A stretch of 64,000 bases of DNA. It comes from Lepidostoma basale (Eukaryota; Arthropoda; Insecta; Trichoptera; Lepidostomatidae). Both the position numbers and the translations under genes were made by a program. The notes under the pieces are model-generated. The model worked only from the letters and a program-made list of their open reading frames with translations. It did not search any database and was not told the DNA's origin. Shown piece after piece: positions 8,890 to 54,560 of the stretch. The stretch covers positions 1 through 64,000 of the forward strand of contig JAHDVF020000993.1 of assembly GCA_022606425.2 (NCBI GenBank), read 5' to 3'. Position 1 is the first letter of the stretch, and every line of letters begins with the position of its first letter.

Positions 8890-9140
8890 TAAAATAAAAC
8901 AGAAATAAAAACACCGCGCTTCGTTTTTCACCACTATGCGGTTATTTTAATTGCCGACTAGTTTCGCTTGTACCCAAGCTTCCTCAGGGCTTCGTAATAA
9001 CAAACTTCGTTATAATAATAGGCTATTACGAAGCCCTGAGGAAGCTTGGGTACAAGCAAAACTAGTCGGCAATTAAAATAACCGCATAGTGGTGAAAAAC
9101 AAAGTGCACTGTTTTTATTTCTATTTTATTTTAAATATAA
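8890..9140. mobile_element. Hammerhead-like element, long inverted pair
   Basis: Arms 8900-8997 and 9028-9125 are nearly perfect inverted copies around a short AT-rich spacer. Each carries a hammerhead-like module next to the centre, pointing outward and followed by an AATTAAAATAACC block. The same element type recurs at 27418-27680 and 46085-46360. Confidence 0.75.
8953..8990 (-). ncRNA. Hammerhead-like ribozyme module
   Basis: On the minus strand: stem I strand GCC (8988-8990), CTGAGGA (8981-8987), an extra A, stem II GCTTG/CAAGC with loop GGTA, GAA (8963-8965), palindromic stem III ACTAGT (8957-8962), C at the cleavage position (8956), then stem I strand GGC (8953-8955). All invariant hammerhead core positions are present; position 7 is variable in the family. 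The departure is the unpaired A before stem II. Its partner on the plus strand (9033-9070) has AAA in place of GAA. Confidence 0.6.
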
Positions 9141-9159
9141 GTACCTAATTACTACTTAT

Positions 9160-9229
9160 TAGATATGCACTTTCGTACATATAAACCTCGTACTTTTATA
9201 CATTTAAGTTAGTATTTAAATAATTTAAA
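9160..9229. repeat. 70-bp direct repeat, copy 1
   Basis: This 70-base block is identical to 10221-10290, 1061 bases downstream. It adjoins the hammerhead-like element. The segment between the copies contains SINE-L and a hammerhead-element terminus. Confidence 0.9.
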
Positions 9230-9489
9230 TGGTATTCTGATTTTGAAAATTTGGTTTGGTTCATTTGGTGCTCCCGTGAATTTGGAGAAATTACGTGTAT
9301 AAGTGAATTGTTTTGGTCAATTTGATTGTTGCCGCACTTTATAATAGTTAATTGTGAGACGTAATACGTTTGTACTGTTTTGATGTCAAAATTATACAAG
9401 TTTTTTCGTTTATATAAAGAATTTTGACAGGTGTAAAAATAAATTTTTCATTTGTTCCAATGACAATTTGAATAATTTCTTCCATATTC

Positions 9490-10045
9490 TTTTAAAGTTC
9501 TCGCTGGTGTTGGTTGGTTTTAAGTACCTAATTACTGCCAAATAAAAAAAGTGGATACGTGGAACATTAATTAAATCATATAACAGCTAATTTAAAAAAC
9601 ATTGGAAACGTGTAACATAAATTAAATTAACACAAAAGTCCGGATCGTCCATGTCAACATGTGCAACATCGGAAAAACATTATGTGTTATTACATTATGT
9701 GCTTAATTAAAAAAACGGTGGATTCGTGGAACATAAATTAAATAGACAAATGTGCACCATCTAAAAATAACATTTTGTATTAAATTATTTTTATTTTGTT
9801 ATTTTATTTTATATCATTGTATTTTATATTATTTGTTTTAGATTTATTTTGTGGATGTTGGAAGATCTAGGTGTGCGCGGGAGATGCCTATTGGTGGCGA
9901 TGAGGTTCGCAACCCATCACACCGCGTCTCCCGCGGGGCGAAAAGAGAAGGATGGAGTGCCGCATCGGTTAAAGTGTGACAGTCCATTCTTTCTGCCTAC
10001 ACTTTCGGGGAGACGGCGTGATGGTTAGTTAGTTAGTTAGTTAAT
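9490..10045 (+). mobile_element. SINE-L copy 1 (LINE-A-tailed non-autonomous element)
   Basis: The AT-rich 5' part contains degenerate internal repeats of GTGGATACGTGGAACAT. A GC-rich core follows with a hairpin GCGGGAGA (9877-9884) pairing TCTCCCGC (9927-9934). The last ~65 bases are shared with LINE-A (CAGTCCATTCTTTCTGCCTA...GGCGTGATGG) with a (TTAG)n tail. Sharing a 3' end is how SINEs or deleted LINE derivatives use a partner RT. No polymerase III box was found. Other copies lie at 13573, 18996, 44013, 48787 and 55195. Confidence 0.8.
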
Positions 10046-10054
10046 TAGTTATTT

Positions 10055-10095
10055 TTTTAAATGTCTCATCACAAAATGAATGCTTCATACGAAAC
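10055..10095. repeat. Recurrent element terminus block
   Basis: The block AAATGTCTCATCACAAAATG with GAATGCTTCATA recurs with small changes near 27640, 46325, 51800 and 61005. Each time it is close to a hammerhead-like element, so it probably marks one end of that family. Confidence 0.6.
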
Positions 10096-10220
10096 TTTAA
10101 TATTATTTTCATACTAGGGCATGATTTTTTGAAAAAAGTCGCTCAATTGTAAAATCTTAAAACATAATTATTTAATTAAAATGTTTTAAAAAATCTGAAG
10201 AAAAAAAACCGAAAACATTA

Positions 10221-10290
10221 TAGATATGCACTTTCGTACATATAAACCTCGTACTTTTATACATTTAAGTTAGTATTTAAATAATTTAAA
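10221..10290. repeat. 70-bp direct repeat, copy 2
   Basis: Identical to 9160-9229. A LINE-C fragment is inserted immediately after it. Confidence 0.9.
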
Positions 10291-10294
10291 ATAT

Positions 10295-10520
10295 CTTCTT
10301 CTTCAAGTGCCCTGTCGGGTCCCCCCAACGTTGGCGATCACCTCGGCGAACCTGTCCCTGTCCTGCGCCGCTCGGAACAGCTCCTTAACACTTTGGATGC
10401 CGGTCCACTCTCTCACGTTTCGCAGCCAGGACATTTGTCTCCTTCCGGGCCCTCGGCGTCCCTCAATTTTTCCCTCCAATATCAGTTGGAGAAGGCGGTA
10501 CTTTTCCCCATGCAGTGAAA
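10295..10520 (-). mobile_element. LINE-C 3' fragment
   Basis: On the minus strand this encodes the RT C-terminus, with GRRQMSWLRNVREWTGIQSV-like sequence, ending in a GAA tail (cttcttcttc, 10295-10304). It matches 40076-40660, 50115-50330 and 57250-57640 on the minus strand and 28304-28765 on the plus strand. Confidence 0.75.
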
Positions 10521-10659
10521 TATAGTAAATATTATCAATAACAACTATAAAAACTAGTAATTTTGGTATTCAAAAAAGTTCGAGCACCTGATAAAAGTTG
10601 AATATCAGATAATAACAATGTAACAGATATGACGGGCATACCAGTTGTAGGAATGCCTT

Positions 10660-11090
10660 TTAAAACACACTTCGCGATCGTTTCTCTCGTATCATTTCAC
10701 ATCTTCTCTCTCTCCACATCCCGCGAGTGCAGTGCGGCTCTCACTCGTTCTAATGTTATTTGAACCATTATTACTTTTATCGGCGAATATGATTTTAACG
10801 GTGTGAATATCGGAATACTGGAACTGTAATGGGGAACTGAACAGGTGTGTAAAAAGGTTTTCAAGCCGAATGTTGGCTCCACGGGCGGTTCGTGAAATTT
10901 AAAAATAGAATGCACAAATGCTCTTTGGTTTTTAGACCGCATTAACGTCCTGTAATTTTGAGATAATATATTACTAGTGCAGCTGGCTAAATTTACAGTG
11001 TAATACTTCTTTCCTCTTCTCCAGCCAGCTAGTCGCGGAGAGCGAACCTTTCGTCTCAAGGGATTCCTTCTTGCTGTTGTCATTCAATTA
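10660..11090. other. Single-copy island with 128-codon open frame
   Basis: A 128-codon frame on the minus strand (10697-11083) is the longest that I cannot assign to a transposon. It has no signal peptide, repeat or domain I recognise, and composition is only mildly richer in GC. It is probably non-coding, but an exon of an unknown gene cannot be excluded. Confidence 0.25.
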
Positions 11091-11094
11091 GGGA

Positions 11095-11420
11095 TGGGTG
11101 TAAATTTCAACAACATAGTATAAACTTCGGAAATTGAAAAACTTTGTTTAATCCACTATTTAATAAAAAATATTAAAAAAAAACACGACGTGTTTCGGAG
11201 GATACCTCCATCTTCAGGTGTAAAAATATAATAAAAACTAAACAAAGAAAGACTAATAAAAAACGTATTTAAAATTCGATACAATAATTCAAATTTAAAA
11301 TATAACCTGTGCTATTTGTTATGAGTAGGTACTAAAATAAACAGTAAGAACTAATAAATAATATCAAATAATAATAATACACGATGATAAAAAAAAAATA
11401 AAGTTGTAATTTAGAAAAAA
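11095..11420 (-). mobile_element. Hammerhead-like element, GGAGG subtype copy 1
   Basis: Read on the minus strand it aligns with 41560-41835(+) over more than 200 bases upstream of the ribozyme module (block ATCGAATTTTAAATACG, then TTTGTTTAGTTTTTAT). It continues for about 40 bases downstream (GTGGATTAAACAAAGTTT). A third copy with a decayed core is at 40790-40930. Long co-linear homology shows a dispersed mobile unit rather than a chance motif. Confidence 0.7.
11183..11221 (-). ncRNA. Hammerhead-like ribozyme, best copy
   Basis: Minus strand, in order: stem I ACAC (11218-11221), CTGAAGA (11211-11217), extra T (11210), stem II GGAGG/CCTCC (11205-11209 with 11197-11201) around loop TAT, GAA (11194-11196), ACACGT (11188-11193) forming a two-pair stem III, C17 (11187), stem I GTGT (11183-11186). 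All four stem I pairs and all stem II pairs are Watson-Crick. The expected cut would follow the GTC at 11187. The extra T before stem II is the only departure from the known motif; activity is inferred, not shown. Confidence 0.65.
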
Positions 11421-11779
11421 CATACATTTGAAAATACATAATTTATATAGAAATATAGTATATCCATGGTAGTTTATTTGAGGTATCGATACAAGCTTTA
11501 AATTAAACAATTAATCTAAGATTTATAGAGCTAGAGATTTACACTAGAAATACAACAATAATTTAGCGGTCGAGATTTACCATCAAGAAGTAGGATTCCA
11601 CGAGGTCCGTCGAGGGTTGAGGGGCATAATGAAATGTCAAATGGGTCACCTGACTTCGCGAGGCTATGTAAACTAAAAGGAAGTAGAATTAGGTGAAGAT
11701 ATCTATGTATATAATATGAATTAAAACTTAACAAAGTGTCAATGTATTATATATAATGTGAATTAAAACTAAGTAAAAT

Positions 11780-11935
11780 TAATAAGAAGGTCGGAATGGG
11801 GAACGTTGTTAAACATAAAGCGATCGCTCAACCCAACCAATGAAAGGTCGTAAGTCCTGTAAGCGCCTCGGCCACCACATTCTGTTCCCAGAAAAACCAT
11901 TTACCTACATCTTCGTCTCTATTGAGATACCATTA
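11780..11935 (+). mobile_element. Solo arm of foldback element FB2
   Basis: It aligns with the right arm of the 430-bp foldback at 61699-62128, including GTCGGAATGGGG, CAACCCAACCAATGA, TAAGTCCTGTAA and CTTCGTCTCTATTGAGATAC. Only one arm is present, suggesting a partial copy or deletion. Confidence 0.75.
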
Positions 11936-12360
11936 ATCCTTATAAAAAAATAATAAAGTGAACTAAATAATGATATTAAAATTACTGTTAATGGTGTGAT
12001 TTTGTGACATGGAATCATCCCTTCTCGAGATACATTATTGATTTCGGAACAGCGTGTAGATTTCAACAAGGTGCTCACAAAATGACTGCACGTCCCGCCC
12101 ATGGGTGGATTGGATATCTCCGTATGAACACTCAGCAGAAGTTTTTCTGCTGCCGGCAACTTGAGCTTGGATCTGCACTTTTTGTTATTACTTTTTCAAG
12201 TATTTTACTAAAATGAAATGAGCTGAGATGAAGCTTCTTGCGGGGTATGATGTTATTACATTTTGATATCGTGCAGACGGTTCGAATTAATGTTTTTCGA
12301 ACAAATTACCGATTAAATTGTACATAAATATTTTTAGGAAAAACAATTTTTTTTACAAAA
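11936..12360. other. Unassigned sequence
   Basis: There is no repeat match and no convincing coding potential. Confidence 0.3.
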
Positions 12361-12363
12361 TTA

Positions 12364-12660
12364 AATTTATTGTCTAAGAAATGAATTCGATGCGAATGGA
12401 AGTGTTGTGAACAAAATAATGAAAGGATCATTAAGATGATTTGAACACATAATATAATGAATAAAGAAAGATATATAAACGATGTAAATGGAATTAGAAA
12501 TAGAGGATGGCCGAGAAAAATGTGACATGATAAAATAAATAAAATATTGAATGTCAGCGAAATCAACGTGCGTGCATGACACAATGTACAAATGTTGAGG
12601 AAGTGAGAGAAGTACGTCAGGAAAGAAAAGTGTGGCATTCCGTTTTTTCTGCCTGAGCGA
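12364..12660 (+). mobile_element. LINE-A copy, heavily decayed
   Basis: The plus strand retains the order of LINE-A landmarks: GCGAATGG...GAACAAAATAATGAAAGGATC, RWFEH-like, NDVNGIRNRG-like, then CAGGAAAGAAAAGTGTGGC and TTTTTTCTGCCT. The TTAG tail is lost. Many small deletions mark it as one of the older copies. Confidence 0.75.
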
Positions 12661-12771
12661 CTCTTAGGTGGTACCACAATCCTGTAAAATTACACCCTAA
12701 GTAAATTTCGTATGTCATGTCCTCCCCTTGTTTATATAGATAGTTTTTTTTAAGTATTCTTATAAGTTGAC

Positions 12772-13495
12772 AACATAAAAAAAAAAAAACGCAGCGACCC
12801 TTTTCAGTAAAATACACATTCCTCCAAAAATTCCCAACATAAAAATGTTCGGCCAAGACGTTCCTTGGACCAAAACAATCAAATACCTTGGGGTTACCTT
12901 GGATTCTAAGCTGACATGGAGGCCACACATTACAAATAAAGTCAAAGCCGCGTCAAAAGCAATCTCAGCCCTCTACCTAATGTTAGCTAGAAACAGTAAA
13001 CTAAGCATCGACAATAAACTCCTGATATACAAAACGGTTATAAGGCCGATCTTCACTTATGCAGCCCCAATCTGGGGCTATGCAGCTTCGAGTCACATAC
13101 AAAAACTCCAAATCCTGCAAAATAAGGCTATCCGTTTATCGCTTGGTGCGCCTTCATGGACCAGGATTACACAACTGCACCTAGAATCGAGAATCCCGAT
13201 GATAGATGAATTCATTCTAAAACTTGCCGAACGTTTTTACAAAGGACTCCCTTCACATCCCAACCCCACAATAAAAGACCTCTCTAATTACGACCCAAAC
13301 ACTTCCAGCCGCCACAAGCGCCCAAAATCGATTCTCCTTCAGAGGAACACTCCGGGCCACACAAATCATGCCCCGAATAAACTAACAACCCACCAAATCA
13401 CCTTCCAACAATGTTCCCATCAGACGTAAGAGGAATAGCCACATGAGCTGAACCTCTGTAAGCCAGAAGATCCAAGTCCAAGTCCAAGACAATAT
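12772..13495 (+). mobile_element. Jockey-like LINE, RT C-terminal end
   Basis: The open frame continues upstream of the methionine at 12845 and ends at 13429. It encodes IKYLGVTLDSKLTWRPH, then LLIYKTVIRPIFTYAAPIWG and LQNKAIRLSLGAP. These are hallmark blocks of the C-terminal RT region in Jockey-clade non-LTR retrotransposons. A short 3' UTR ends in CCAAGTCCAAGTCCAAGAC. The same 3' UTR occurs reversed at 18293-18475 and 24178-24300. The catalytic domain is missing because the copy is 5'-truncated. Confidence 0.85.
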
Positions 13496-13572
13496 AAAAA
13501 ATTATTACATAAAATCTATGAAATTAATTTGTTCATATTTCCAATTTCGAAACTAAAAAAAAAACACGATAG

Positions 13573-13665
13573 AAAACTAACTAACTAACAATCATACTGA
13601 AAGGGTAGGCAGAAAGAATGAACTGTCACACTTTTACTGATGCGGCACTCCATCCTAAACATCCT
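13573..13665 (-). mobile_element. SINE-L fragment
   Basis: It begins with the reversed TTAG tail (AACTAACTAAC) and the shared LINE-A 3' block. Then comes the SINE-L-specific TTTTACTGATGCGGCACTCC before it breaks off. It is more like SINE-L than LINE-A because of the GATGCGGCACTCCATCC motif. Confidence 0.65.
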
Positions 13666-14094: not shown

Positions 14095-14180
14095 ATTTTT
14101 TATTTTATATTTAGTGTGCTTCCACTTGTGCTTATCGTTGACCGGTTTCGGCAGCTTGTTGCCATCTTCTGGTACCTACA
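14095..14180 (-). mobile_element. Hammerhead-like module, decayed
   Basis: The minus strand reads CAGAAGA, T, stem GGCA/TGCC with loop ACAAGC, GAA, ACCGGT, C. The U at core position 4 has become A, so it should be inactive. Stem II is intact and differs in sequence from the other subtypes. Confidence 0.45.
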
Positions 14181-15820: not shown

Positions 15821-16080
15821 TATATCGCACAGTGAGTGTATAACCGAGATAAGTGCAAATAAACATTTTTGGAGATATGGGAGTTTAAAGACTTCATATT
15901 GCTTAGATTTTTTTTTTTTTTTTTTAAATCAACCAATGATTTTCGGTTTACTATATACCGAAAATCATTGGTTTATTTAAAAAAAAAAACAGTTTTTCAA
16001 GCAATATGAAGTCTTTAAACTCCCATATCTCCAAAATGTATATTTTAACTTATCTCGGTTTTACACTCACGGTGTGATAT
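15821..16080. mobile_element. Foldback hairpin FB1, copy 1
   Basis: Two arms of about 120 bases pair almost completely. Landmarks are TATATCGCAC at the outer edge, ACCGAGATAAGTGCAA, TTTAAAGACTTCATATTGCTT and AACCAATGATTTTCGGTTTA at the centre. Copy 2 is at 63162-63430. It has no coding capacity and looks like a MITE. It is wedged between two oppositely oriented LINE-A fragments. Confidence 0.85.
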
Positions 16081-16620: not shown

Positions 16621-16621
16621 T

Positions 16622-17600: not shown

Positions 17601-18010
17601 ATATTAAATTTTCCTTCATACTCGCCATCAATTTGCGCTGTGGATTCATATTTGAATAACTTTTTATTTTTTATTTTTTCACAACATTTTCATACTATTC
17701 TAAGTTATACGGCTAAAATTTCTAAACCGAGGTAGGGCGTCTGCAGCCCTAATACGAGTATGTTTGTGAAAAAATATTAATTAAATAATTATTTTCTTCT
17801 TTATTTGCCAAAACTTTGTGTTGCGGATTCATAGTATAATGTTAATGAAGGGGTTTTGTATATACATGCAATACTGTTCTTTCCTGACACACTTTTCTCG
17901 TTTTCTCTACATTCATAAAACGTGTCATGCACGCACGTTTTTGTATTTACGAAATACTGATGAAAGGCTTCTGTGTCCGAAACATGTTGGTTTTATCATT
18001 TAAAAAAAAA
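17600..18010. mobile_element. Hammerhead-like element remnants
   Basis: Two blocks carry the recurrent flank TTTGCGCTGTGGATTCATAT. A plus-strand module at 17957-17987 reads CTGATGA, AA, GGCTTCTGTGTCC, GAA, ACATGT. Between them, 17869-17940 is a minus-strand LINE-A fragment (TTCTTTCCTGACACACTTTT...CACGCACGT). Stem II is only partly paired. Confidence 0.5.
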
Positions 18011-23394: not shown

Positions 23395-23770
23395 TCATAC
23401 ACTGAAGAAGGGAAGTTTGTGTCCCAACAAACATGTTTGTGAAATGTGCAAAAAAGTGTTGTGATAATACAATGTTTAGAAAAGGTTATTCACATTTGAA
23501 TCCACAACACAAAGTGATGGCGAATATTGAAGAGAGTTTTCATTTATTTACATCATTGTTCATATTAATTGTTCCAAAAACGTTTTTTTTTTTTTTTTTT
23601 TTAACTTTTTACAATGCAACAACTTTATTAAAAAATAAAAAAACTTTTTTATATTTTTCATATTTTTAATAAGTTGATGTTGTTTACAAAGTTAAAAAAA
23701 AAAGAAACATTGTTCAATGAATACGCAACACAAATTTATGGCGAATATAGAAGAAATATTAGTTGTTCAA
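23395..23770 (+). mobile_element. Hammerhead-like element remnant
   Basis: A plus-strand module CTGAAGA, A, GGGA...TCCC, then AAACATGT lies at 23402-23437. Flanking blocks are TCACATTTGAATCCACAACA and AAGTGATGGCGAATAT, and a poly-T run is at 23583-23604. GAA is altered, so no activity is expected. Confidence 0.5.
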
Positions 23771-24812: not shown

Positions 24813-24855
24813 GATAATAGAATTGGATTTTCTGATGAACTAAGATACAAGTTTT

Positions 24856-25154
<299 letters not shown>

Positions 25155-25894: not shown

Positions 25895-25985
25895 ACACTT
25901 TTAGTATTTGTATCTTAACCACTTTATTTGGTAACGACAACCGGTTTCGCTCCCACCGGAGCTTCGTCAGAGTGAGAGACTAAAC
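25895..25985 (-). mobile_element. Hammerhead-like element, GCTCC subtype
   Basis: The minus strand carries the module at 25936-25970, followed by CCAAATAAAGTGGTTAAGAT. The same AATAAAGTGG follows the module at 44788-44825. Only one arm is recognised here. Confidence 0.6.
25936..25970 (-). ncRNA. Hammerhead-like ribozyme module
   Basis: CTGACGA (25964-25970), extra A, stem II GCTCC/GGAGC with loop GGTG, GAA (25946-25948), then ACCGGTTGTC. That tail can form a two-pair stem III with a canonical GTC site. No convincing stem I pairing is visible, so full activity is doubtful. Confidence 0.45.
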
Positions 25986-27057: not shown

Positions 27058-27415
27058 TTTGAAAATATAAAAAGTGAATGCGGTGCGAATGATGGTGTCA
27101 TAAACAAAATAATGAAAGGATCATTAAGATGGTTTGGAAATATGGAAAGAATGAATGAAGAAAGAATGGTATATTTTTTTTATGTTAATGATGTAAATGG
27201 AACCAGAAATAGAGGAAGACCGAGGAAAACGTGGCACGATCAAATAAATCAAATATTGAATGTCGGCCATGCGAGGAGTCAGAGAAATCGACGCGCGTGC
27301 ATGACACGATGTATGAATGTTGAGGAAGAGAGAGAAATATGTTAGGAAAGAAAAGTGTGGAAGTCCATTCTTTCTGCCTACCCCTTCGGGGAGACGGTGT
27401 GATGGTAAGTTAGTT
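27058..27415 (+). mobile_element. LINE-A copy
   Basis: A plus-strand open frame (27112-27345) encodes MKGSLRWFGNMERMNEERMV and RNRGRPRKTWHDQINQILNV. The 3' end GGTGTGATGGTAAGTTAG is standard. The KKV codons are replaced by a T-rich run. Confidence 0.85.
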
Positions 27416-27417
27416 TG

Positions 27418-27680
27418 TATTTAAAATAAAATAAAATAAATACACTGCACTTTGTTTTTCACGACTTTTGTTTTGCACTTTGTTTGCCGACTAGTTTTGC
27501 TTGTACCCAAGTTTCCTCAGGGCTTCGTCATAAAAAGCGAAACTAGTCGGCAATTAAAATAACCACATAGTGGTGAAAAATAAAGCGCAGTGTTTTTATT
27601 TTATTTTATTTTAAATACAAATAATAAAACAAATTAAAATGTCTTACCACAAAGTGAATGCTTCACGAAAATTAAAAAAA
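27418..27680. mobile_element. Hammerhead-like element, inverted pair (ACTAGT subtype)
   Basis: Same element type as 8890-9140. The minus-strand module (about 27489-27522) retains CTGAGGA and ACTAGT but has AAA for GAA, and stem II is weakened. The plus arm has lost its CTGA segment but keeps GCGAAACTAGTCGGC and the AATTAAAATAACC flank. Confidence 0.65.
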
Positions 27681-31335: not shown

Positions 31336-31615
31336 CCGCTATAACTCCTTTGACCTTAGCAAAGCGAAACATGTCATTCCCGTAAAATAAAATTAAACTT
31401 TCTTCTATATTCGCCTATACTTTGGGTTGTGGATTCATATTTGAATTTATAAATATATCTGCACGTTGTATTACAAAACTTCATTTCACTTATCACAGAC
31501 ATGTTTCGGTTACAACATAACCTTTAAAAAAAATTGAAGAAGGTTACATTAAACCGAAATATGTCTGTAGTAAATGTAATAAAGTGTTGTAATATTGTCA
31601 CATCGTAAGTGATGT
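31336..31615. repeat. TAGC-type and hammerhead-like remnants
   Basis: 31360-31400 holds CCTTAGCAAAGCGAAACATG. An inverted pair follows at 31495-31580 with stem GGTT...AACC and ACATGTCTG or ATATGTCTG. Cores are degraded (TTGAAGA). Confidence 0.5.
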
Positions 31616-34009: not shown

Positions 34010-34615
34010 TTACTTCTATTCCAAAATATATAACACTTTATTTAAATAGTCCATTGTTTTGGCCGAAACACTATGATACCTTAACATTTTAAACTGTTTA
34101 TAAATAAACTTGGTTTTTATTTTACGCGACAGGTGTTTCTTTTTAGTACAATCTAGCTAAAAAATAATAATACTACCTTCAACTTTTGTCACCTTTCCTA
34201 TTAATGTAATCTATATACCTCCTGTTATTGTTTATCGTTTTTTTAATTTTTTATGTCTCATCGTTTTTGACTCTATACTATGTGTACTTGCTCCTTCTTA
34301 TTACTGTTTTATTATTATTATGATTATTATATTTTCCACCTTCAATATTTTCTGCTGTAAATAGTAACTAGCCGTTCTTTTAATTAAAATATTTAGGTAC
34401 CTAATTCAATTTCAGCAAGAATTTCAAAATTATATCAAAGAAATTATTCAAATTAACATAGGAACAAATACACATAAAGATTCGAAAAATCACAAAAATT
34501 TGAAATTTGATATATTATTGTAATACCTGATGATGTCAACAAAGGTTGATAAAACAGCTGTCGCGTAAAATAAAATACAATTGTCATACGAAAAACACAG
34601 TTTATTCATTAACCG
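34010..34615. mobile_element. Hammerhead-like element, ACAGCTGT subtype
   Basis: The left end block is AATAGTCCATTGTTTTGGCC (34046-34065). The right part has a plus-strand module at 34527-34562: CTGATGA, T, GTCAAC/GTTGAT around AAAG, then AAA in place of GAA, ACAGCTGT, C. The flank TAAAATAAAATACAATTGTC also recurs at 49980-50010. Its core is mutated. Confidence 0.6.
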
Positions 34616-39324: not shown

Positions 39325-39480
39325 TCACCAGTCTATCGATGCCAGCGAGCCTGATAAAATCGGTCGCTGTCGAAATAAAGACAAATGTGGAAGTAGTTAT
39401 AAAAAACATCGTTTAATTTAATTATTATTTGAAATGAACTTCCATCAAGAGATTTTAGATAAATCATTTGATTATCTTAA
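39325..39480 (+). mobile_element. Hammerhead-like element, CAGT/GCTG subtype remnant
   Basis: CACCAGTCTATCGATGCCAG, then CGAGCCTGATAAAATCGGTC and GCTGTCGAAATAAAGAC align with the module at 51617-51657. The core (CTATCGA, missing GAA) is degraded. The downstream block GAACTTCCATCAAGAGATTT is shared with 51415-51740. Confidence 0.65.
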
Positions 39481-40789: not shown

Positions 40790-40930
40790 TATCTTTATAT
40801 TGTGTAATAAAGCTTTCTTTGCTTAGAGTTCAGTTATATATTTATACCTGAAGATGGAGGTCATTTTCGAAACATGTCATGGTTAATAGTTTTATTTTAT
40901 AAAAAAATATTGAATAATCTAAAGCGTTGT
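40790..40930 (+). mobile_element. Hammerhead-like element, GGAGG subtype copy 3 (decayed)
   Basis: CTGAAGA (40848-40854), T, GGAGG, then TCATTTTC where CCTCC is expected, GAA, ACATGT, C. Stem II is broken although the core bases survive. Upstream sequence matches 41700-41757. Confidence 0.65.
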
Positions 40931-41560: not shown

Positions 41561-41835
41561 TAAATAATTTATTTTTTATTTTTTGTATTTTCATTATGTA
41601 TTGTTTAACATTATTTCTTAGTTCTTAGTGATAAAAAATAATTAGTACTTACAACGAATAGCTCATGATAATTTTTAAATTTTAATTATTATATCGAATT
41701 TTAAATGCGTTTTTTATATCAGTCATTCTTTGTTTAGTTTTTATCATATTTTTATACCTGAAGATGGAGGTATCCTCCGAAACATGTCGTGTTTTTAAAT
41801 ATTTTTTTTATATTTTGTGGATAAAACAAAGTTAT
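41560..41835 (+). mobile_element. Hammerhead-like element, GGAGG subtype copy 2
   Basis: It is co-linear with 11095-11420(-). Common blocks are TCTTAGTTCTTAGTGATA, ATATCGAATTTTAAATGCG, TTTGTTTAGTTTTTATCATA and, after the module, TGTGGATAAAACAAAGTTAT. It abuts another hammerhead-like element type at about 41837. Confidence 0.7.
41754..41792 (+). ncRNA. Hammerhead-like ribozyme module
   Basis: Stem I ATAC (41754-41757), CTGAAGA (41758-41764), extra T, stem II GGAGG/CCTCC around TAT (41766-41778), GAA (41779-41781), ACATGT (41782-41787), C17 (41788), stem I GTGT (41789-41792). Stem I has one T-G wobble where the copy at 11183 has a C-G pair, so pairing is preserved. Core positions are complete apart from the extra T. 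Confidence 0.6.
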
Positions 41836-41973: not shown

Positions 41974-42034
41974 CAATTGAAGACTACAGGGGAAAAACAA
42001 GAAATGTCAGTTAAAATTCAAAATAAATGTAATA

Positions 42035-43282
42035 ATGCCATCTAGCATAACACACTTTGCAGAAAACATCATCGGAGAGTACCAGGCTGGGTTCAGGAGG
42101 AACAGATCAACAAGTGATCAATTGTTCACAGCAAGGCAGATCCTAGCAAAATGCTGGGAATTTGACGTCGATGTATATCAGCTGTTCATTGACTTCAAAC
42201 AGGCTTATGATAGTATCAGTAGAGAGAAACTGTATGATGTACTCTTGAACTTCAAAATCCCTACGAAGTTAGTAAGACTGGTAAAAGCAACCATGGATAA
42301 TACAAAATGTAGAGTCAAGATAGGAGGAGAGCTCACAGATGAATTCATGGTATCACAGGGCCTCAAACAAGGTGATGGTTTAGCCCCAACACTTTTTAAC
42401 CTGAGTTTGGAATATGCCATAAGGAAAACTTACCACCTTAACACGAATCCCAACACATACTTTAATAGCAGCCAGATCATAGGATATGCAGACGACCTTA
42501 ACATTGTAGGAAGATCCCTAGCAGCCATACACGAAGTATTTGAGCCTTTAGAGACAGCAGCCAAGGAGGTGGGTTTAGAGATAAACGAAGAAAAGACACA
42601 AATAATGAAACAAACCAGGAATGCAACCAACTCAAGGCGAACCATCAGATTCAAGGACAGATACGACTTTAAGATGGTGGAGGACTTCACTTACCTGGGT
42701 TCGTCTATAACAAAAGAAAACGAAGATCACAAGGAAATCGAAAGAAGAATCACAATTGGTAACAAAACATTCTTCTCTCTACTACCAGCGCTCAAATCAA
42801 GAAACGTACACTGGAAAACCAAAATCACCCTGTATAAAACAATCATCCGAACAGTAGTGACCTATGGGTGTGAGGCGTGGACAATGACAGCGAAATCTGC
42901 AGAGCGACTGGATACTTTTGAGAGAAGGGTGCTGCGCAGAATTCTGGGGCCTGTGAATGACGGTGAAGGCTGGAGAGTGCGGCATAATGACGAGCTGTAC
43001 AATATTTACAAAGCTCCCAGTCTCTCCACACAGGTCAGACTGAATAGACTGAGATGGGCCGGTCACGTGCAGAGGATGCCGTCATCGCGAACCCCAAAAA
43101 GATTGCTGGAGTGGCACCCAGGTGGTAGAAGACCAATTGGACGACCAAGGCTGCGATGGGAGGATGAAGTTCGGAGAGATGGAACAAGATTGTTAAGAGT
43201 GTCAGATTGGAGGGTCGAAGCGGAGGACAGGAGGAGTTGGAGGCGAAGAATACTGGAGGCTAAGGCTCGATATGGGCTGTAG
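42035..43282 (+). CDS. LINE-B reverse transcriptase, 5'-truncated ORF
   Basis: This is the longest frame in the window, 415 codons. The RT palm is visible: QAGFRRNRSTSDQLFTARQI (about residues 17-36), a first catalytic block QLFIDFKQAYDSI (about 49-61), SQGLKQGDGLAPTLFNLSLE (about 107-126) and GYADDLNIVG (about 149-158), whose paired aspartates bind metal. After it come the thumb-like YLGSSI, YGCEAWTMTAKSAERLDTFE and an Arg/Trp-rich C-terminus with GRPRLRWEDEV. The endonuclease domain and first RT blocks are missing. The apparent start methionine and next three codons come from the target-site duplication, so the frame is an insertion by-product. Confidence 0.85.
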   Translation: MPSSITHFAENIIGEYQAGFRRNRSTSDQLFTARQILAKCWEFDVDVYQLFIDFKQAYDSISREKLYDVLLNFKIPTKLVRLVKATMDNTKCRVKIGGELTDEFMVSQGLKQGDGLAPTLFNLSLEYAIRKTYHLNTNPNTYFNSSQIIGYADDLNIVGRSLAAIHEVFEPLETAAKEVGLEINEEKTQIMKQTRNATNSRRTIRFKDRYDFKMVEDFTYLGSSITKENEDHKEIERRITIGNKTFFSLLPALKSRNVHWKTKITLYKTIIRTVVTYGCEAWTMTAKSAERLDTFERRVLRRILGPVNDGEGWRVRHNDELYNIYKAPSLSTQVRLNRLRWAGHVQRMPSSRTPKRLLEWHPGGRRPIGRPRLRWEDEVRRDGTRLLRVSDWRVEAEDRRSWRRRILEAKARYGL

Positions 43283-44747: not shown

Positions 44748-44850
44748 ACTTTTCATTTAGTATAAACCACTTTATTGAGTAAGTAGCGCCAACCGGTTTC
44801 ACTCTGTAGCGAGCTTCATCAGGGCTATACACAAACAGTTTCGGTGTTTA
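44748..44850 (-). mobile_element. Hammerhead-like element, GCTC subtype
   Basis: On the minus strand the module is followed by ACTCAATAAAGTGGTTTATA, which resembles the flank of the 25936 module and includes AATAAA. Upstream homology is short. Confidence 0.6.
44788..44825 (-). ncRNA. Hammerhead-like ribozyme module
   Basis: Stem I GCC (44823-44825), CTGATGA (44816-44822), extra A, stem II GCTC/GAGT with a G-T wobble around GCTACA, GAA (44798-44800), ACCGGT (44792-44797), T at the cleavage position (GTT is an acceptable NUH triplet), stem I GGC (44788-44790). The TA two bases further on each side may extend stem I. Confidence 0.55.
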
Positions 44851-46084: not shown

Positions 46085-46360
46085 AAGTAAAAAAAACGGT
46101 GTTTAACCACGGTATGGTTATTATAATTGATGCCGACTAGTTACGCATGGACCCAAGCTTCATCAGGGCAGTATAAAAAACTAAACGAAAATACAAAATG
46201 TACATGTACATATAATAATAAACGGTGGTGAAATCAGGGAAGGGGGTGCGAGAGGGAGAGGGATAATCGAAAAAATGTTTACCTTTGAAATAGTTAATAA
46301 TAATTCGACTTCCCTTCTTATGCTTTTAAAATGTCTAACCACAAACTGAGTGCTTCTTAT
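46085..46360 (-). mobile_element. Hammerhead-like element, ACTAGT subtype
   Basis: The minus-strand module at 46131-46170 has stem I TGCC/GGCA, CTGATGA, extra A, GCTTG/CATGC and ACTAGT, but GTA replaces GAA. It should be inactive. The terminus block AAAATGTCTAACCACAAACT lies at 46328-46347. Confidence 0.65.
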
Positions 46361-46601
46361 CAAAATTTTGATAAATAATAAATGATTAAAACAAAGTATG
46401 AATCACATTTGTTTCACAAGGTGGTCAACATTGTTATTCCCAATAACCCAATTAAGTTTAAAAAAAATAGAAAATGAATTACTATTTTCTTCAATATTCG
46501 CTATAATTTGTGTTGCGAATTAATTAAACAATATTTCTAACTTTGTAAACACCACTAACTTTATTTAATTTTTTTTTTAAATACAAACATGTTTCGGACA
46601 C

Positions 46602-46765: not shown

Positions 46766-46869
46766 TTCGGACACAGAAGCCAAAATAAAATAAGTCAAAA
46801 CTGACCACATTCATGAAAAAATTGATTAAGTATTTATTTTGTATATACAATACAAACACTAACAAAATT

Positions 46870-46901
46870 CTGATGAAGGGCTTCTGTGACCGAAACATGT
46901 T
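46870..46901 (+). ncRNA. Hammerhead-like ribozyme module
   Basis: CTGATGA (46870-46876), extra A, stem II GGGC/GACC with one mismatch around TTCTGT, GAA (46892-46894), ACATGT, T. The ancestral stem was probably GGAC/GTCC, as suggested by GTGTCC at 17957-17987. No stem I pairing is visible. Confidence 0.4.
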
Positions 46902-46969
46902 TGTATTTTAATTTTTTTAAATAAAGTTAATAATGTTTAAAAAGTTATAAACATTGTTCAATTAATATT

Positions 46970-47554: not shown

Positions 47555-47770
47555 AAATACACTTATATGTTTTGTTTTTGCACCACTTTGTTTTGTTTTA
47601 TCTAACCAACCAGTTTCACCCCCAACTGGAGCTTTGTCAGGGTTAAAAAAACAAAAACTGAGTTTTTGTTTTTGTAACGCTGATGAAACTCCGGCGTTAG
47701 AAAAACCGGTTGGTTCGATAAAACAAAATAAATTGGTTTTTAAAACAAAATACAAAAATGTTTTTGAATA
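47555..47770. mobile_element. Hammerhead-like element, inverted pair, TAACC subtype
   Basis: The minus-strand module at 47603-47645 has stem I TAACC/GGTTA (five perfect pairs), CTGACAA, extra A, GCTCC/GGGGT, GAA, ACTGGT, T. G8 has become A. A plus-strand partner (CTGATGA near 47681) has lost stem II. Arms end AAACAAAATACAAAAA and complement. Confidence 0.65.
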
Positions 47771-49165: not shown

Positions 49166-49169
49166 AATT

Positions 49170-49412: not shown

Positions 49413-49800
49413 AATACTAAATAGACCACGGGAAAGCACGATTTTATTATTTAACAAAAAACTTATTTTTGTATTGTGATTACTAATTTCTATATTATCT
49501 TTTTGTTTCAGGTAAGCTGAATTGCAAACATCGTAAAAAATGTTCAACATTGATTTAAATAGAAGGTAAAATAGATTTTTTTAATAATTCATAGACGTTA
49601 TTATTTATCAACTGGTAGTTATTTACAAATTCATCATTCCATCCTATTTCACTAATTTCTCACGTATCCACTAAAGCATTTTCAAATTGATTTTCTTTTA
49701 CATAGCTTTTTAAAATTTGTGTAATTTGTGGAAAATCAATATGACCTTTCACCACGAGGTTATGTTTTCTACTTTTATGATAGATAAAGAATAATAGAAT
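49413..49800. other. Unassigned AT-rich sequence
   Basis: I see no repeat or gene. Confidence 0.25.
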
Positions 49801-50095
49801 ACTTCGTAAATTATTAAATAAAATAACTTTGTTTTTTGTATCACAATTGTATTTTATTTTATATATTATTGTAACACATATGTGTATATGTGTATGTATT
49901 ATTGTAGCATATATGTGTATATGTGTATATATTATTGTAACATAGGTTGATGTCAACATAGGTTGATGAAACAGCTGTAACGTAAAATAAAATACAACTG
50001 TGATACAAAAAACAAAGTTATTCAATTTAAAATGTTAAAGGTATCATAGTGTTTCGGCTAAAACAACGGACTATTTAAGAATACTTTGTATTTAA
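49800..50095. mobile_element. Hammerhead-like element, ACAGCTGT subtype
   Basis: Inverted arms (TGTATCACAATTGTATTTTA at 49838 and complement near 49990-50010) end in GTTTCGGCTAAAACAACGGA. The plus-strand core near 49944-49978 keeps GTCAAC...GTTGAT, GAA and ACAGCTGT, but the CTGATGA segment is damaged. A two-unit tandem of ATTATTGTA plus CATATGTGTATATGTGTA lies at 49865-49945. Confidence 0.6.
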
Positions 50096-50109
50096 CCACT
50101 GTATGGTTA

Positions 50110-50330
50110 TTATCTTCTTCTTCAAGTGAACCTGTCCCTGTCCTGCGCCACTCGGAACAGCTCCTCCACACTTCGGATGCCGGTCCACTCCCTTACGTTT
50201 CGCAGCCAGGACATTTGTCTCCTTCCGGGCCCTCGGCGTCCCTCAATTTTCCCCTCCAATATCAGTTGGAGAAGGTGGTACTTTTCCCCACGCAGTATAT
50301 GACCCAGATGTTAGATCTTTCGAACCTTGG
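50110..50330 (-). mobile_element. LINE-C 3' fragment
   Basis: The minus strand encodes RREVSWLRNVREWTGIRSV-like sequence, with a GAA tail (cttcttcttc) at 50114-50124. It ends at the TTAGATCTTTCGAACCTTGG block. Confidence 0.75.
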
Positions 50331-50389
50331 TTATTATATTATATTATATAGAACCGATGGTTATTAAAATTGATGCCAACTCGTTTCTA

Positions 50390-50545
50390 ACTGCATAGTT
50401 AACAACACTATTAAATATCCCATTTTTTTTGTTTATAAACTTTTTGAGAATGTCGCGACACCTAAGTTGGACCTATTGTAACCAAAGCTTCACCAGGGCA
50501 TTATAATAACAAAACTAGTGTGAATCAAGTACCATAACATAAAAA
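50390..50545 (-). mobile_element. Hammerhead-like remnant, flank duplicate 1
   Basis: AGTTAACAACACTATTAAAT, AACTTTTTGAGAATGTCGCG, ACACCTAAGTTGGACC and CCAAAGCTTCACCAGGGCAT are repeated at 51048-51205. The two copies flank LINE-A. CTGGTGA replaces CTGATGA on the minus strand. Confidence 0.55.
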
Positions 50546-50574
50546 ATGCTTTATTATTTTATATCTATAAGTGC

Positions 50575-51047
50575 GGATACTCTGTGTATGATGAGAATGT
50601 CGAATGAAAATATAAGAAATGAATGCGGTGCGAATGATGGTGTTATGAACAAAATAATGAAAGGATCATTAAGATGGTTTGTACATATGGAATGAATGAA
50701 GAAAGAATGGTAAAAACATTATATGTTTACGATGTAAATGGAATCAGAAATAGAGGAAAATCGAGGACGTTTTCCTCGATCTTCCTCTGGATTTGGAGCA
50801 AGTAGATGAGTTCGTGTATTTGGGTATTATGTTTACAAAAGATGGAGAGGGAGAAAAACGTGGCACGATCAAATAAATCAAATATTGAATGTCGGCCATG
50901 TGAGGAGTCAGAGAAATCGACGCGCGTGCTTGACACGATGTATGAATGTTGAGGAACGAGAGAAATATGTCAGGAACGAAAAGTGTGGCAGTCCATTGTT
51001 TCTGCCTCTACCTTTTGGGAGACGGTGTGATGGTTAGTTAGTTAGTT
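50575..51047 (+). mobile_element. LINE-A copy with internal rearrangement
   Basis: Normal LINE-A order runs from MRMSNENIRNECGANDGVMN to NGIRNRGK. Then a short inverted stretch and a displaced upstream segment encoding LEQVDEFVYLGIMFTKDGE (50794-50850) precede KRGTIK-INQILNVGHVRSQ and the usual 3' end with (TTAG)n. The displaced segment belongs about 200 codons upstream, as in the copy at 57960-58713. Confidence 0.8.
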
Positions 51048-51205
51048 AGTTAACAACACTGTTAAATATAATTTTTTTTTGTAATAAACTTTTTGAGAAT
51101 GTCGCGACACCTAATTTTGACCCATTTAAATCCAAGCTTCACCAAAAACAAAATAACAAGCAAAACTAGTGTGCATCAATTACAATAACATATAATATAA
51201 TTAAA
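51048..51205 (-). mobile_element. Hammerhead-like remnant, flank duplicate 2
   Basis: See 50390-50545. This copy has CTTCACCAAAAACAAAATAA where the core would be, and ACTAGTGTGCATCAATTACA downstream. Confidence 0.5.
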
Positions 51206-51209
51206 TAAA

Positions 51210-51795
51210 AAGTGATAATTAAATAAAACGATGTTTTTTAACTACTTCCACTTTTGTCTTTATTTAGACAGCGACCGGTTTCGCCAGGCTCGCTGGCATC
51301 GTCAGACTGGTAACACTATTGTAAACTTTAAGTTTAATATAGTGTTTTTTCAGTGTAGCTTCGTTAGCGTTTTTAAGATAATCAAATGATTTTACTGAAA
51401 TCTCTTGATGGAAGTTCATTTTAAATAATAATTAAATAAAACGATGTTTTTTAACTACTTCCACTTTTGTCTTTATTTAGACAGCGACCGGTTTCGCCAG
51501 GCTCGCTGGCATCGACAGACTGAGATTTCAGTAAAATCATTTGATTATCTTAAAAACGCTAACGAAGCTACACTGAAAAAACAATATATAAAACTTAAAG
51601 TTTACAATAGTGTTACCAGTCTGTCGATGCCAGCGAGCCTGGCGAAACCGGTCGCTGTCTAAATAAAGACAAAAGTGGAAGTAGTTAAAAAACATCGTTT
51701 TATTTAATTATTATTTAAAATGAACTTCCATCAAGAGATTTCAGTAAAATCATTTGATTTTCTTAAAAATAAAAAGTGTTTTATTAATTTATATC
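51210..51795. mobile_element. Hammerhead-like element cluster, CAGT/GCTG subtype
   Basis: A single unit (51220-51425) is followed by an inverted pair (51425-51735) whose arms are almost perfectly complementary around about 51565. All three units share AACGATGTTTTTTAACTACT, CACTTTTGTCTTTATTTAGA and GAACTTCCATCAAGAGATTT. The inverted-pair modules both carry CTGTCGA (A6 to T), while the single unit keeps CTGACGA. Confidence 0.75.
51269..51309 (-). ncRNA. Hammerhead-like ribozyme module
   Basis: Stem I CAGT (51306-51309), CTGACGA (51299-51305), extra T, stem II GCCAG/CTGGC around CGAGC, GAA (51280-51282), ACCGGT (51274-51279), C17 (51273), stem I GCTG (51269-51272; one T-G wobble). All core bases are present. 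The inverted copies at 51482-51522(-) and 51617-51657(+) are the same apart from A6 to T. Confidence 0.6.
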
Positions 51796-51889
51796 TTTAA
51801 GTTTAAAACTTCTAACCACAAAGTGAGCGCTTCAGATAGTTAATTTGTATAGAAAATAAGCAAAAACCCTTTCAAAGTAAGCCCTTTAA

Positions 51890-52200
51890 ACGTAATTTGT
51901 AGACAATTGTTATTGGAATTCCCGTTAAAGACATTCCGATTGGGGAACAATGCTACAAACTATCGACGATTGCGTCGCGCCGGGGGAGTTGTGCAAATTA
52001 CTAGCGGCGGTAGCAACAACGGCAACTGTTGCGCCGCTGTTGCAACAATTTGTCCGATTAGCGTCATTTGCATCCACGGCACCAGTCGGCAGGTAGCCCC
52101 CGGGGCTTGCCCACAACTTTGTAACAGAGTTCTAGCGTTTGCTACAAATTGGGGACTCATTTACTTCTAGTCTTCGATGAGGGGGATCCAATCCAAACGA
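51890..52200. other. GC-richer single-copy island
   Basis: Balanced composition, with overlapping frames on both strands that look random. It contains repeated GCAACA/GTTGC motifs (51990-52050) and ATTTGCAT at 52066-52073. It is a candidate conserved non-coding block. Confidence 0.4.
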
Positions 52201-52254
52201 GATGTGTGAATATCCATTATTGAATTGATTTGCTTTTTCATTTTAAGGCAAAAA

Positions 52255-52760
52255 AAAACTAAATTACTAACTAACTCTTACGCCGTCTTCCCGAACGGAC
52301 TGCCAAATTTTTCTTTCCTGATATATTTCTCTCATACATCGTGTCATGGACGCACGTGGTTTTTTTTTCTCTCCCTAGTTTACAACAGGTCGTTTGAACC
52401 CAATTACTGTTAACAATTTATTTTAGCTTTCTATTTATATTATATTGATTCTCATGAAATGTAATAGGTAATCTATCGCCTATCGCCATTTTATGTGTCA
52501 CGTGAATTCTACACTAGAGCACAGACAGTGTGACAATCACAATGCCATTGCCAGAAATCGAACTCGGGACCTTCGATATAGATATTGAAATCAGAGCTCT
52601 TACGACTCTGCCACGAAGGTCGCCTACTTTTATTTGATCTTACAACGTTTCCTCGATCTCCTCTATTTCTAGTTCCATTTACATTGTTAAAATTTACCTT
52701 TTTTTTACCATTCTTTATTCATTTATTCATTATTTTTCCATAACACTTTCATTCGCTGAG
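52255..52760 (-). mobile_element. LINE-A copy interrupted by SINE-T
   Basis: The minus-strand LINE-A 3' part (52255-52373: ACTAACTCTTACGCCGTC ... CATGGACGCACGTGG) is separated from its upstream part (52626-52760: TTTGATCTTACAACGTTTCC...TTTCATTCGC) by SINE-T copy 6. This gives the order of insertion: LINE-A first. Confidence 0.75.
52376..52625 (-). mobile_element. SINE-T copy 6, variant 3' end
   Basis: The head at the high-coordinate end has GCGACCTTCGTGGCAGAGTCG and a degenerate B box (CCGAGTTCGATTTCTGG). The 3' end is TTGGGTTCAAACGACCTGTT, as in copy 5. It is inserted in LINE-A. Confidence 0.8.
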
Positions 52761-52900
52761 AAATCGACATGCGTGCATGACACGATGTATGAATTTTGAG
52801 GAAACCAAAGATGTGAACGAAAAACAATGTGACTGTTTATTCTTTCTTCCTATCCCCTAAGGGATAGGATAATAAACTCGTGAATGGTTAGTTAGTTATT
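52757..52900 (+). mobile_element. LINE-A 3' fragment
   Basis: GAGAAATCGACATGCGTGCA, ATGAATTTTGAGGAAACC, then a strongly altered 3' end and GAATGGTTAGTTAG. It is head to head with the previous copy. Confidence 0.7.
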
Positions 52901-53084
52901 TATATTGATTTAAATTTTGAAAAAGAAAGCGTGATGGTTAGTTAGTTATTTATATTGATTTGTGATAAAATTTAAAATAATTTTATAACAATTGATCATT
53001 GGCTATAATAGAATATTGCGTATCCGTATACTCACTATTTAGCTAGCAAGAGTAACCTTAAAAAACAGCCCAAAGTGAAAATGT

Positions 53085-53808
53085 TTAAGGGGTTAGGGGC
53101 AGTCAATGGTATAAAAAACAAGTATTTTCAATAATTATTTTTGTTGGTAAATATAACTTTTTTTTATAAAACCAACAATATTAAATTATAATATTATGTT
53201 TTAACTTGACTTGACCCAAATTTGAAAAAAAAATATTGTTGTTTATGAAGTTATCGCCATATTTGTTGGACCCTGTTCCATAAGCGGTGCTTTGCAGTGA
53301 ACAATATACTTCTAATTATACCGTAATTACTTCTTACAGGTTCATCTAAAACCATTCAATAAAAAAATTAAATTATAGTTAATCTAGTGCCTGATCGAAG
53401 TTTTTTTAGAGTATTTATAAAATTAACAAAATGACGGCCTCTGATAAAAAATTCCGGATTTTCAAGGAAAAATACAACAGTTAATTGGTTATAAAAAGTA
53501 GTTTTTACAAAGAAAAAAAAAATCATTCAATCAGGCACTAGATTAATTAATAAAGTAATTTTATTTATTTATTTGAATGATTCAAGATGAACTTGTAAAA
53601 AGTTATAATGATTACCGCATTTTGGAACAAGGTCCAACAAATATGGCGATGACTTATATTCTTTCTTTTAAATTTGGGTCAAATCAAGTTAAAACATAAT
53701 AAAACCATTTTTTATTGTTGGTTTCATAAAATAAATTAAATAACTGAGCAAAAAAAATATTCAAAATACTTATTTTTTTCAGACCTCTGACAGCCCCTTA
53801 CCCCTTAA
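53085..53808. mobile_element. Foldback FB3 flanked by TTAA
   Basis: The ends read TTAAGGGGTTAGGGGC and GCCCCTTACCCCTTAA. The arms pair over about 280 bases each (landmarks ATATTATGTTTTAACTTGAC, CCATATTTGTTGGACC and CTAGTGCCTGATCGAA with their complements at 53685, 53625 and 53535). The total is 724 bases without coding capacity. TTAA at both borders is the target preference of piggyBac-type transposases, so this may be a piggyBac-related MITE. Confidence 0.8.
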
Positions 53809-54200
53809 CTTTCCCGGCGCCTATAAACAGCTCGGCTCATTACGGGGCGGAAAGGCAATAAATGCCAACAGTTGTACATTGAAAACTAAAATCTCCGTCG
53901 TAAATTTTGTTCCCGTACACCGCGAAGAGCAAATTGAACTATCCCGGACAAATTATTGGGCAATTTTCAATAATTGAATGTATTAACAGCGCGATGGCAG
54001 GCGGGCGGGCTGTAGGCGAGTGAGCGGCCTGATAATGTGCGCCAGGCCGTGCGAAATAATCTCTAGTTCATATACAGGAATCAGAATAAATCGGCGAATA
54101 TTCGCCGCCCGGCGGGTTTGTGGGCTTTTATTCACTCACCAGTCTAGAATTAAGGCAAATTTCTCTCTATCCGGTAGAGCAAAGCGCAAATTGGAAATTG
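53809..54200. other. GC-richer single-copy island
   Basis: This includes CATTACGGGGCGGAAAGGCA, GGCGGGCGGGCTGTAGGCGA and CGCCGCCCGGCGGGTTTGT. A 63-codon frame (54020-54211) is not convincing. It is a candidate conserved non-coding block. Confidence 0.4.
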
Positions 54201-54239
54201 TGTTCAATTAATATCGTTGTTGAGCTTATCTATACTTCC

Positions 54240-54560
54240 TTCTAACTTATATTCAACATTACTTTGTGTTGTGAATTCGTACAAAATGATCATGCAATCG
54301 TGAGTATGTGACCACATACATGAAAATTTTGTTAAAACATTTATTTTGTATATGAACGAGTATAATATAATATGTATTACTGTTAAAATTAAAAACACTG
54401 TTATAATATCACAATTTCTTTTTATTCACTGAGAGTGTCGCGACAGCTGTTTCGCCAACCGATGTTGGCATCATCAGGTGTTCATCTCATCAACATCCTC
54501 AGTGAATAAAAAGATGATTAAAAATATTATTTTTTTTTGAACATTGTTTTTTCCGGTTTT
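54240..54560 (-). mobile_element. Hammerhead-like element, ACAGCTGT subtype
   Basis: The flank at 54235-54300 is the recurrent TGTGTTGTGAATTCGTAC block. The module is at 54442-54477. A partial inverted partner (CTCAGTGAATAAAAAGATG, 54498-54516) mirrors TTTTTATTCACTGAG (54420-54433). Confidence 0.6.
54442..54477 (-). ncRNA. Hammerhead-like ribozyme module
   Basis: CTGATGA (54471-54477), extra T, stem II GCCAAC/GTTGGC (six perfect pairs) around ATCG, GAA (54451-54453), palindrome ACAGCTGT (54443-54450), C17 (54442). Stem I pairing is weak (CAC against GCG). The cleavage site lies in a second palindrome, TGTCGCGACA (54436-54445). Confidence 0.5.

Follow-up and report, generated by a model that had tools for sequence, protein, structure and literature searches.

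Minimal type I hammerhead motifs in a 64-kb window of the caddisfly Lepidostoma basale, very likely from several families of Penelope-like retrotransposons

In a 64-kb stretch of the genome of Lepidostoma basale (contig JAHDVF020000993.1, positions 1 to 64,000, hereafter the window; 34% GC) we placed by hand 22 copies of one short motif, a minimal type I hammerhead ribozyme in which stem III measures 2 bp and has a mostly palindromic tip and in which an extra nucleotide stands between A9 and stem II (Table 1). In each copy stem I is followed by CTGANGA, a single additional A or T, stem II, GAA, A-C-palindrome-G-T, C or T, and stem I again. The copies are mostly decayed members of at least six families (A to F, our own grouping) that share this one design, and not the unrelated copies of which an earlier note on this DNA had spoken. 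In families A, B, C, D and F the similarity reaches past the motif; between the two E copies it is confined to the 44 bp of the motif. The earlier note had placed the motif between 8953 and 54477, a span too narrow on its left, as firm copies extend from 6120 to 54481, and all stem I and stem II variants that it had listed were found in the window.

The core letters alone (CTGANGA...NAAAC..GT, stems not required) occurred at 16 sites in the window, compared with a mean of 0.25 and a maximum of 2 in 40 second-order Markov simulations. Stem II pairing at these sites peaked one base past A9 (on average 3.44 of 4 pairs, compared with 1.38 and 2.06 one offset to either side), and one of the 16 sites (23402, plus strand) was without pairing at the usual place. 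Similarly, a strict structural descriptor gave five matches in the window and 0.075 in 200 simulations, and a descriptor allowing no extra base after A9 gave none in the window. The usual hammerhead consensus has no nucleotide between A9 and stem II. The copies depart from it, as an extra A or T stands between the two in all 22. CUGANGA and GAAA are joined by stem II and closed by stems I and III, which is the type I core, and the very short stem III with a palindromic tip is that of the minimal hammerheads of Penelope-like elements (PLEs). The tip was palindromic in 15 of the 16 core-letter sites and stem III in 17 of the 22 hand-placed copies, so that the description of stem III as always a palindrome was nearly right, except for the word always.

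The extra nucleotide does not exclude the copies from the hammerheads, because hammerheads can carry insertions of 1-2 nt beside their stems (PMC10085705; this and the other papers are cited from the excerpts available) and because the same nucleotide occurs in PAc, the Poseidon PLE of Anolis carolinensis, the printed template of which carries a hammerhead (PMC11167929). In our parse of the printed sequence, CTGAGGA is followed by an additional T, a stem II of six pairs when read at offset 1 (offsets 0 and 2 give none), GAA, ACGT, C and three stem I pairs; an ATG lies over the core, ACAACACA stands at +111 of the open reading frame, and the authors placed the start of reverse transcription at 111-118 (PMC11167929). 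The window copies resemble PAc in the extra nucleotide after A9, in the palindromic stem III (ACGT in PAc), in the ATG overlapping the core (families A, E and F) and in the ACAACACA downstream of two family B copies. They differ from PAc in their stem II sequences, in the position of ACAACACA (+100 in copy 6250-6289 and +97 in the weak copy at 23402) and in the frame of family A, which ends after at most 25 codons in the window.

A covariance model was built from 19 copies with alignment A3, in which the loops (plus the stem III of family E) were trimmed or padded with N. Two MAFFT alignments were dropped; the one on untouched copies misplaced family E, and the one on loop-trimmed copies inserted a gap in stem II. 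With the filters off, the model gave 22 matches in the window at 23.5 to 48.2 bits, of which 19 are the training set and match by construction, one is identical in letters to a training copy and two (31530 and 47604) are independent. As a control we scored, with default filters, 57 loci on viral contigs (511 kb) picked for the core letters; as relatives of the window copies these loci were rejected, as they look like chance matches. Four weaker window matches (14140, 23398, 60884 and 31498) scored inside the range of this control and were retained for homology or position only.

Stems I and II varied between the copies with their pairing kept. Counted over 19 copies, pairs were formed in 83 of the 95 cells of stem II and in 58 of the 76 cells of stem I, compared with shuffled means of 50.9 and 34.6, and none of 20000 shuffles equalled either count. 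Omitted here were 47604-47644, 51617-51657 (identical in letters to 51482-51522), 31530-31569, 14140-14169, 23398-23441, 60884-60911 and 31498-31524. As kinship among the copies inflates the covariation tests, we relied on six family representatives. Their stem II sequences differed and formed 30 of 30 pairs, which was equalled by 27 of 20000 shuffles, about the rate of 1 in 720 at which the true arrangement itself arises, and stem I formed 19 of 24 pairs (equalled by 109 of 20000 shuffles). On alignment A3, 85.2% of 209 cells were paired, compared with 58.6% after shuffling and at most 42.2% with the partners slid, and the covariation score was 0.680 against 0.202 in shuffled alignments.

Within families, 49 of the 125 stem II cells compared pairwise differed; 31 of these mispaired, 14 were one-sided changes that kept the pair and 4 were double changes, which represent two distinct events (pair 4 in family B and pair 2 in family E). 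For stem I, 49 of 100 compared cells differed (34 mispaired, 7 one-sided with the pair kept, 8 double). Most of the compensation lies between families, where it is evident; within them it is seen only now and then. Single copies mostly decay, because the changes within families mostly mispair and because G12 and A6 are altered, the former in 6 of 22 copies (five times as G12A, which could reflect the loss of CpG sites) and the latter in three of the four family F copies. All core letters were kept in 11 of the 22 copies, and five were intact, which we defined as all core letters with at least 2 stem I pairs and at least 4 stem II pairs. Core divergence within families was 0.084 compared with 0.336 in the flanks, which is not counted as proof, as most copies were chosen by their core; in this comparison the anchor of one row (47643) was misplaced by three bases.

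Selection on a folded RNA, which the earlier note had read from the compensatory changes, is supported as the best reading because the covariation across families comes together with a hammerhead anatomy that matches a published PLE hammerhead. The same note had named RNA or single-stranded DNA in place of a protein site in duplex DNA; its covariation argument held, and since covariation alone does not separate RNA from single-stranded DNA, our choice of RNA follows from the hammerhead identity.

A number of the copies are part of self-complementary units (8875-9150, 27414-27621, 47555-47765, 6056-6353 and 51370-51769), and in unit 27414-27621 the second arm breaks off within the hammerhead. 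We looked for flanking repeats at six units and found convincing ones at two, F and B; at the other four they were weak and low-complexity at best. The 12-bp repeat AAATAAAAAGTG flanks the F insertion at 51203-51214 and 51767-51778, and no coding body was seen between these sites (51215-51766). Repeats of 12 bp or longer, as at unit F, were met in 4 of 3000 random placements, and repeats of 10 bp or longer, as at unit B, in 20 of 3000. The arms of unit B end 96 and 128 nt from A9, and unit F ends at 85 and 140 nt. Six neighbouring pairs of model matches were less than 300 bp apart, five of them head-to-head, one direct and none tail-to-tail. Their clustering was not significant in a test that took in 26 model matches, four of them weak; 6 neighbours lay within 300 bp, where 2.9 were expected and the maximum in 5000 was 9.

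Beside the F insertion, a family C-like stretch GCAAAACTAGT was noticed by eye at about 51155-51202, immediately to its left, and F may have inserted beside another pseudo-long terminal repeat (pseudo-LTR). A 51-codon frame at 51264-51419 (minus strand) crosses the F unit into the hammerhead, and its start recurs at 39434 and 51720 (both plus strand); it may be a remnant of the coding region of the element or a product of chance.

Units F and B have the make-up of PLEs, that is head-to-head inverted pseudo-LTRs, a target-site duplication and an optional tail. In the Penelope elements of Adineta vaga, inverted pseudo-LTRs stand head-to-head, the flanking repeats measure 8-10 bp, and one arm may carry a tail of 31 bp (PMC3846280). 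The window units are likewise head-to-head, and unit B has a repeat of 10 bp and arms that differ by 32 bp; different are the lack of a coding body and, at unit F, the repeat of 12 bp and the difference of 55 bp between the arms. According to reviews, minimal hammerheads sit in PLE pseudo-LTRs and, in animal genomes, are mostly dispersed motifs (PMC7761336, PMC6155905); PLE hammerheads are described there as minimal, tandem and possibly cleaving as dimers, to which palindromic stem III tips are tied. Little or no stem III, an apparent location in pseudo-LTRs, dispersed copies and palindromic tips are all found in the window, which differs from the reviewed cases in that a scan of 20 frames yielded no PLE coding region. 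Hammerheads with a palindromic stem III are also described from Aedes aegypti and others, where stem and loop III were proposed to permit dimers (PMC3088659); by this description they are alike, with a dimer stem of 10 bp there compared with 6 to 8 bases in the window. Among insects, PLEs are abundant in the monarch butterfly, where they account for 1.03% of the genome (PMC8848866). Among the papers listed by our literature searches, with most subscription journals outside their coverage and most papers unopened, there was none that we recognised as describing these families. Minimal hammerheads were reportedly associated with PLEs by Cervera and de la Pena in 2014 and by Luense, Weinberg and Breaker in 2017.

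Based on the anatomy, the covariation, the design common to PAc, the inverted units and the flanking repeats at two units, all observed directly, it is very likely that the motifs are minimal type I hammerheads which several families of Penelope-like retrotransposons carry in their pseudo-LTRs. We infer the PLE membership, least firmly for families without the AC-rich tail. The shared hammerhead and the inverted units suggest a PLE origin for families C, D and F, and for families A and E it is the hammerhead that points to one.

A number of observations weigh against this assignment. An Rfam search of the window gave no hammerhead at the gathering cut-off or up to E = 5, and in all 22 copies the unconstrained fold of lowest energy was better than the two-stem hammerhead fold (stem III uncounted), in the five intact copies by 2.1 to 3.8 kcal/mol. 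On alignment A3 neither the pairs changed on both sides (326 of 500 shuffles) nor the further pair types (49 of 500 shuffles) rose above shuffling, so that two of five whole-structure measures failed. In family F the core was barely better kept than the flanks (0.136 compared with 0.175), where three of the four copies had been detected by homology and not by their core. The AC-rich tail, ACAACACA, was present in only two of five family B copies, one of them weak, and in none of 18 copies of the other families. The ribozyme of PAc appears to need the protein (PMC11167929). Dimer action in eukaryotes needs a tandem arrangement according to a review, and the window has only one close direct tandem. 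Finally, a Pfam scan of 20 of the 71 frames of at least 90 codons gave no PLE reverse transcriptase and no GIY-YIG; the matches were one RVT_1 and one DUF6451. The RVT_1 frame (41981-43282, plus strand; E 1e-30) had a best relative 76% identical among 120 listed of 713, and the relatives named by NCBI among these 120 were insect proteins, which may or may not be of the PLE type. No PLE frame is expected if the copies are solo pseudo-LTRs.

Part of this evidence would also suit retrozyme-like non-autonomous elements, short tandem hammerhead repeats that multiply via small circular RNAs cut by the ribozyme, which we regard as an improbable source of the copies. Animal retrozymes measure 170-400 nt and have canonical type I hammerheads in tandem (PMC7229834), and the window has short units with type I hammerheads, a direct pair of family F copies (213 bp apart) for which no coding body was seen, and no PLE protein in the 20 frames scanned. 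However, minimal hammerheads such as those in the window are described for PLEs and Terminons (PMC7229834, PMC7761336), the extra nucleotide is common to PAc, and five of the six close pairs are inverted, with the single direct tandem in family F. Palindromic (foldback or miniature inverted-repeat transposable element (MITE)-like) DNA transposons, with the conserved letters as transposase sites on duplex DNA, are disfavoured as very improbable; several units are indeed near-perfect inverted repeats and the stem III tips mostly palindromes, but a duplex site would lead one to expect neither the one-strand compensatory change of stems I and II nor the resemblance to PAc, and 10 of the 22 firm copies have no noted inverted partner. 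Chance core matches in AT-rich repeats, with the structure read in afterwards, deserve hardly any credence, since the 57 viral matches prove that the letters alone arise by chance but none of them combines at least 4 stem II pairs with at least 3 stem I pairs, and the best of them scored 21.6 bits (default filters), under all 22 firm window copies (filters off; 19 of these formed the training set).

If the motifs are PLE hammerheads, CUGANGA, stem II and GAAA would form the catalytic core in the transcript of an active element, and cleavage of the transcript would follow H17 (C or U), in or beside the start of the reading frame. Two ribozymes would probably have to pair via stem III for activity, because stem III consists of two pairs and a self-complementary tip. 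Active lineages would have retained stems I and II through compensatory change, and what the window holds would be mostly dead, that is solo and head-to-head pseudo-LTRs in decay. Most of these copies would be without a tandem partner, because the close pairs are mostly inverted. The ribozyme of PAc was reported to be protein-assisted, and mutating it left insertion in vitro unblocked (PMC11167929). Doubtful, though conceivable, is that the head-to-head units are more than remnants and, as short palindromic pseudo-LTR pairs whose two strands both carry a hammerhead, form non-autonomous families; PLE proteins would mobilise these in trans, and they would have reached a very high density in this genome (22 firm copies in 64 kb).

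The window also holds fragments resembling long interspersed nuclear elements, the RVT_1 frame among them. For a second protein of the window, the organism-named matches (2 of 23) were from the moths Plutella xylostella and Cydia strobilella. A transfer RNA-like match at 1001-1072 (minus strand) scored 35.9 bits, over the Rfam gathering score, and a long AT dinucleotide array lies at about 24850-25150. Long hairpins at 63210-63382, 15867-16035, 60562-60673 and 31477-31586 gave weak Rfam microRNA matches under the curated cut-off. The first two matched the same Rfam families and may be one MITE-like family, and the last is a decayed hammerhead pair. Weak microRNA matches on inverted repeats (8976-9047 and 31477-31586) were read as palindrome artefacts.

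Table 1. Hammerhead copies, pseudo-LTR units and stem variants in the window (letter changes are given by hammerhead numbering).
Feature	Position	Strand	Remarks
Hammerhead, family C, stem II GCTTG/CAAGC, stem III ACTAGT, intact	8952-8991	-	arm of unit 8875-9150
Hammerhead, family C, G12A	9032-9071	+	other arm of unit 8875-9150
Hammerhead, family C, G12A	27485-27524	-	within self-complementary unit 27414-27621
Hammerhead, family C, A13T	46131-46170	-	
Hammerhead, family D, stem II GCTC/GAGT, stem III ACCGGT, intact	44787-44826	-	
Hammerhead, family D, stem II GCTCC/GGAGC, core complete, stem I one pair only	25935-25974	-	
Hammerhead, family D, G8A, stem I TTTAACC/GGTTAGA	47604-47644	-	arm of head-to-head unit 47555-47765
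Hammerhead, family D, decayed (G12A, stem II 2 of 5 pairs)	47676-47715	+	arm of unit 47555-47765
Hammerhead, family F, stem II GCCAG/CTGGC, stem III ACCGGT, intact	51269-51309	-	
Hammerhead, family F, A6T	51482-51522	-	direct tandem with 51269-51309, 213 bp start to start
Hammerhead, family F, A6T	51617-51657	+	head-to-head with 51482-51522
Hammerhead, family F, decayed (G5A, A6T, G12A)	39329-39369	+	
Hammerhead, family E, stem II GCCAAC/GTTGGC, stem III ACAGCTGT, core complete, weak stem I	54438-54481	-	
Hammerhead, family E, G12A	34523-34566	+	one compensated stem II pair compared with 54438-54481
Hammerhead, family A, stem II GGAGG/CCTCC, stem III ACATGT, intact, ATG overlaps core	41754-41792	+	
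Hammerhead, family A, core complete, stem I lost	40844-40882	+	
Hammerhead, family A, intact, stem III ACACGT (non-palindrome)	11183-11221	-	
Hammerhead, family B, stem II GGGCT/AGTCC, G12T, stem I 7 pairs	6120-6159	-	short arm of unit 6054-6387
Hammerhead, family B, core complete, stem I lost	6250-6289	+	long arm, ACAACACA tail
Hammerhead, family B, core complete, stems decayed	17953-17992	+	
Hammerhead, family B, core complete, stems decayed	46866-46905	+	partial inverted copy at 46519-46601
Decayed hammerhead, C3T	31530-31569	+	head-to-head with weak match 31498-31524 (-)
Possible decayed copy, U4 to A, ACCGGT kept	14140-14169	-	score within viral-control range
Possible diverged copy, assigned to family B by ACAACACA tail	23398-23441	+	score within viral-control range
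Family B remnant, stem II deleted	60884-60911	-	score within viral-control range
Head-to-head inverted pseudo-LTR pair, family C	8875-9150		86% self-complementary
F insertion, pseudo-LTR copies two on -, one on +	51215-51766		exact flanking 12-bp repeat
Head-to-head pseudo-LTR pair, family B	6054-6387		ends set by flanking 10-bp repeat TAATAATAAT (low complexity)
Stem II GCTTG/CAAGC	8987	-	
Stem II GGAGG/CCTCC	41758; 11217	+; -	
Stem II GCTCC/GGAGC	25970	-	
Stem II GCCAG/CTGGC	51305	-	
Stem II GCCAAC/GTTGGC	54477	-	
Stem II GGGCT/AGTCC	6155	-	
Stem II GCTC/GAGT	44822	-	
Stem I ACAC/GTGT	11217	-	
Stem I GCC/GGC	8987	-	
Stem I CAGT/GCTG	51305	-	
Stem I TAACC/GGTTA	47640	-	

As minimal, dimer-forming, PLE-associated hammerheads have already been described, the window families are further members of a known group and the discovery is modest. 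It means that PLE-type hammerheads which the Rfam models miss even at E = 5 can be found in an unannotated insect window, and sorted, by structure alone. The families vary in stems I and II yet retain the extra core nucleotide seen in PAc, which makes this nucleotide a clear point at which to probe cleavage.

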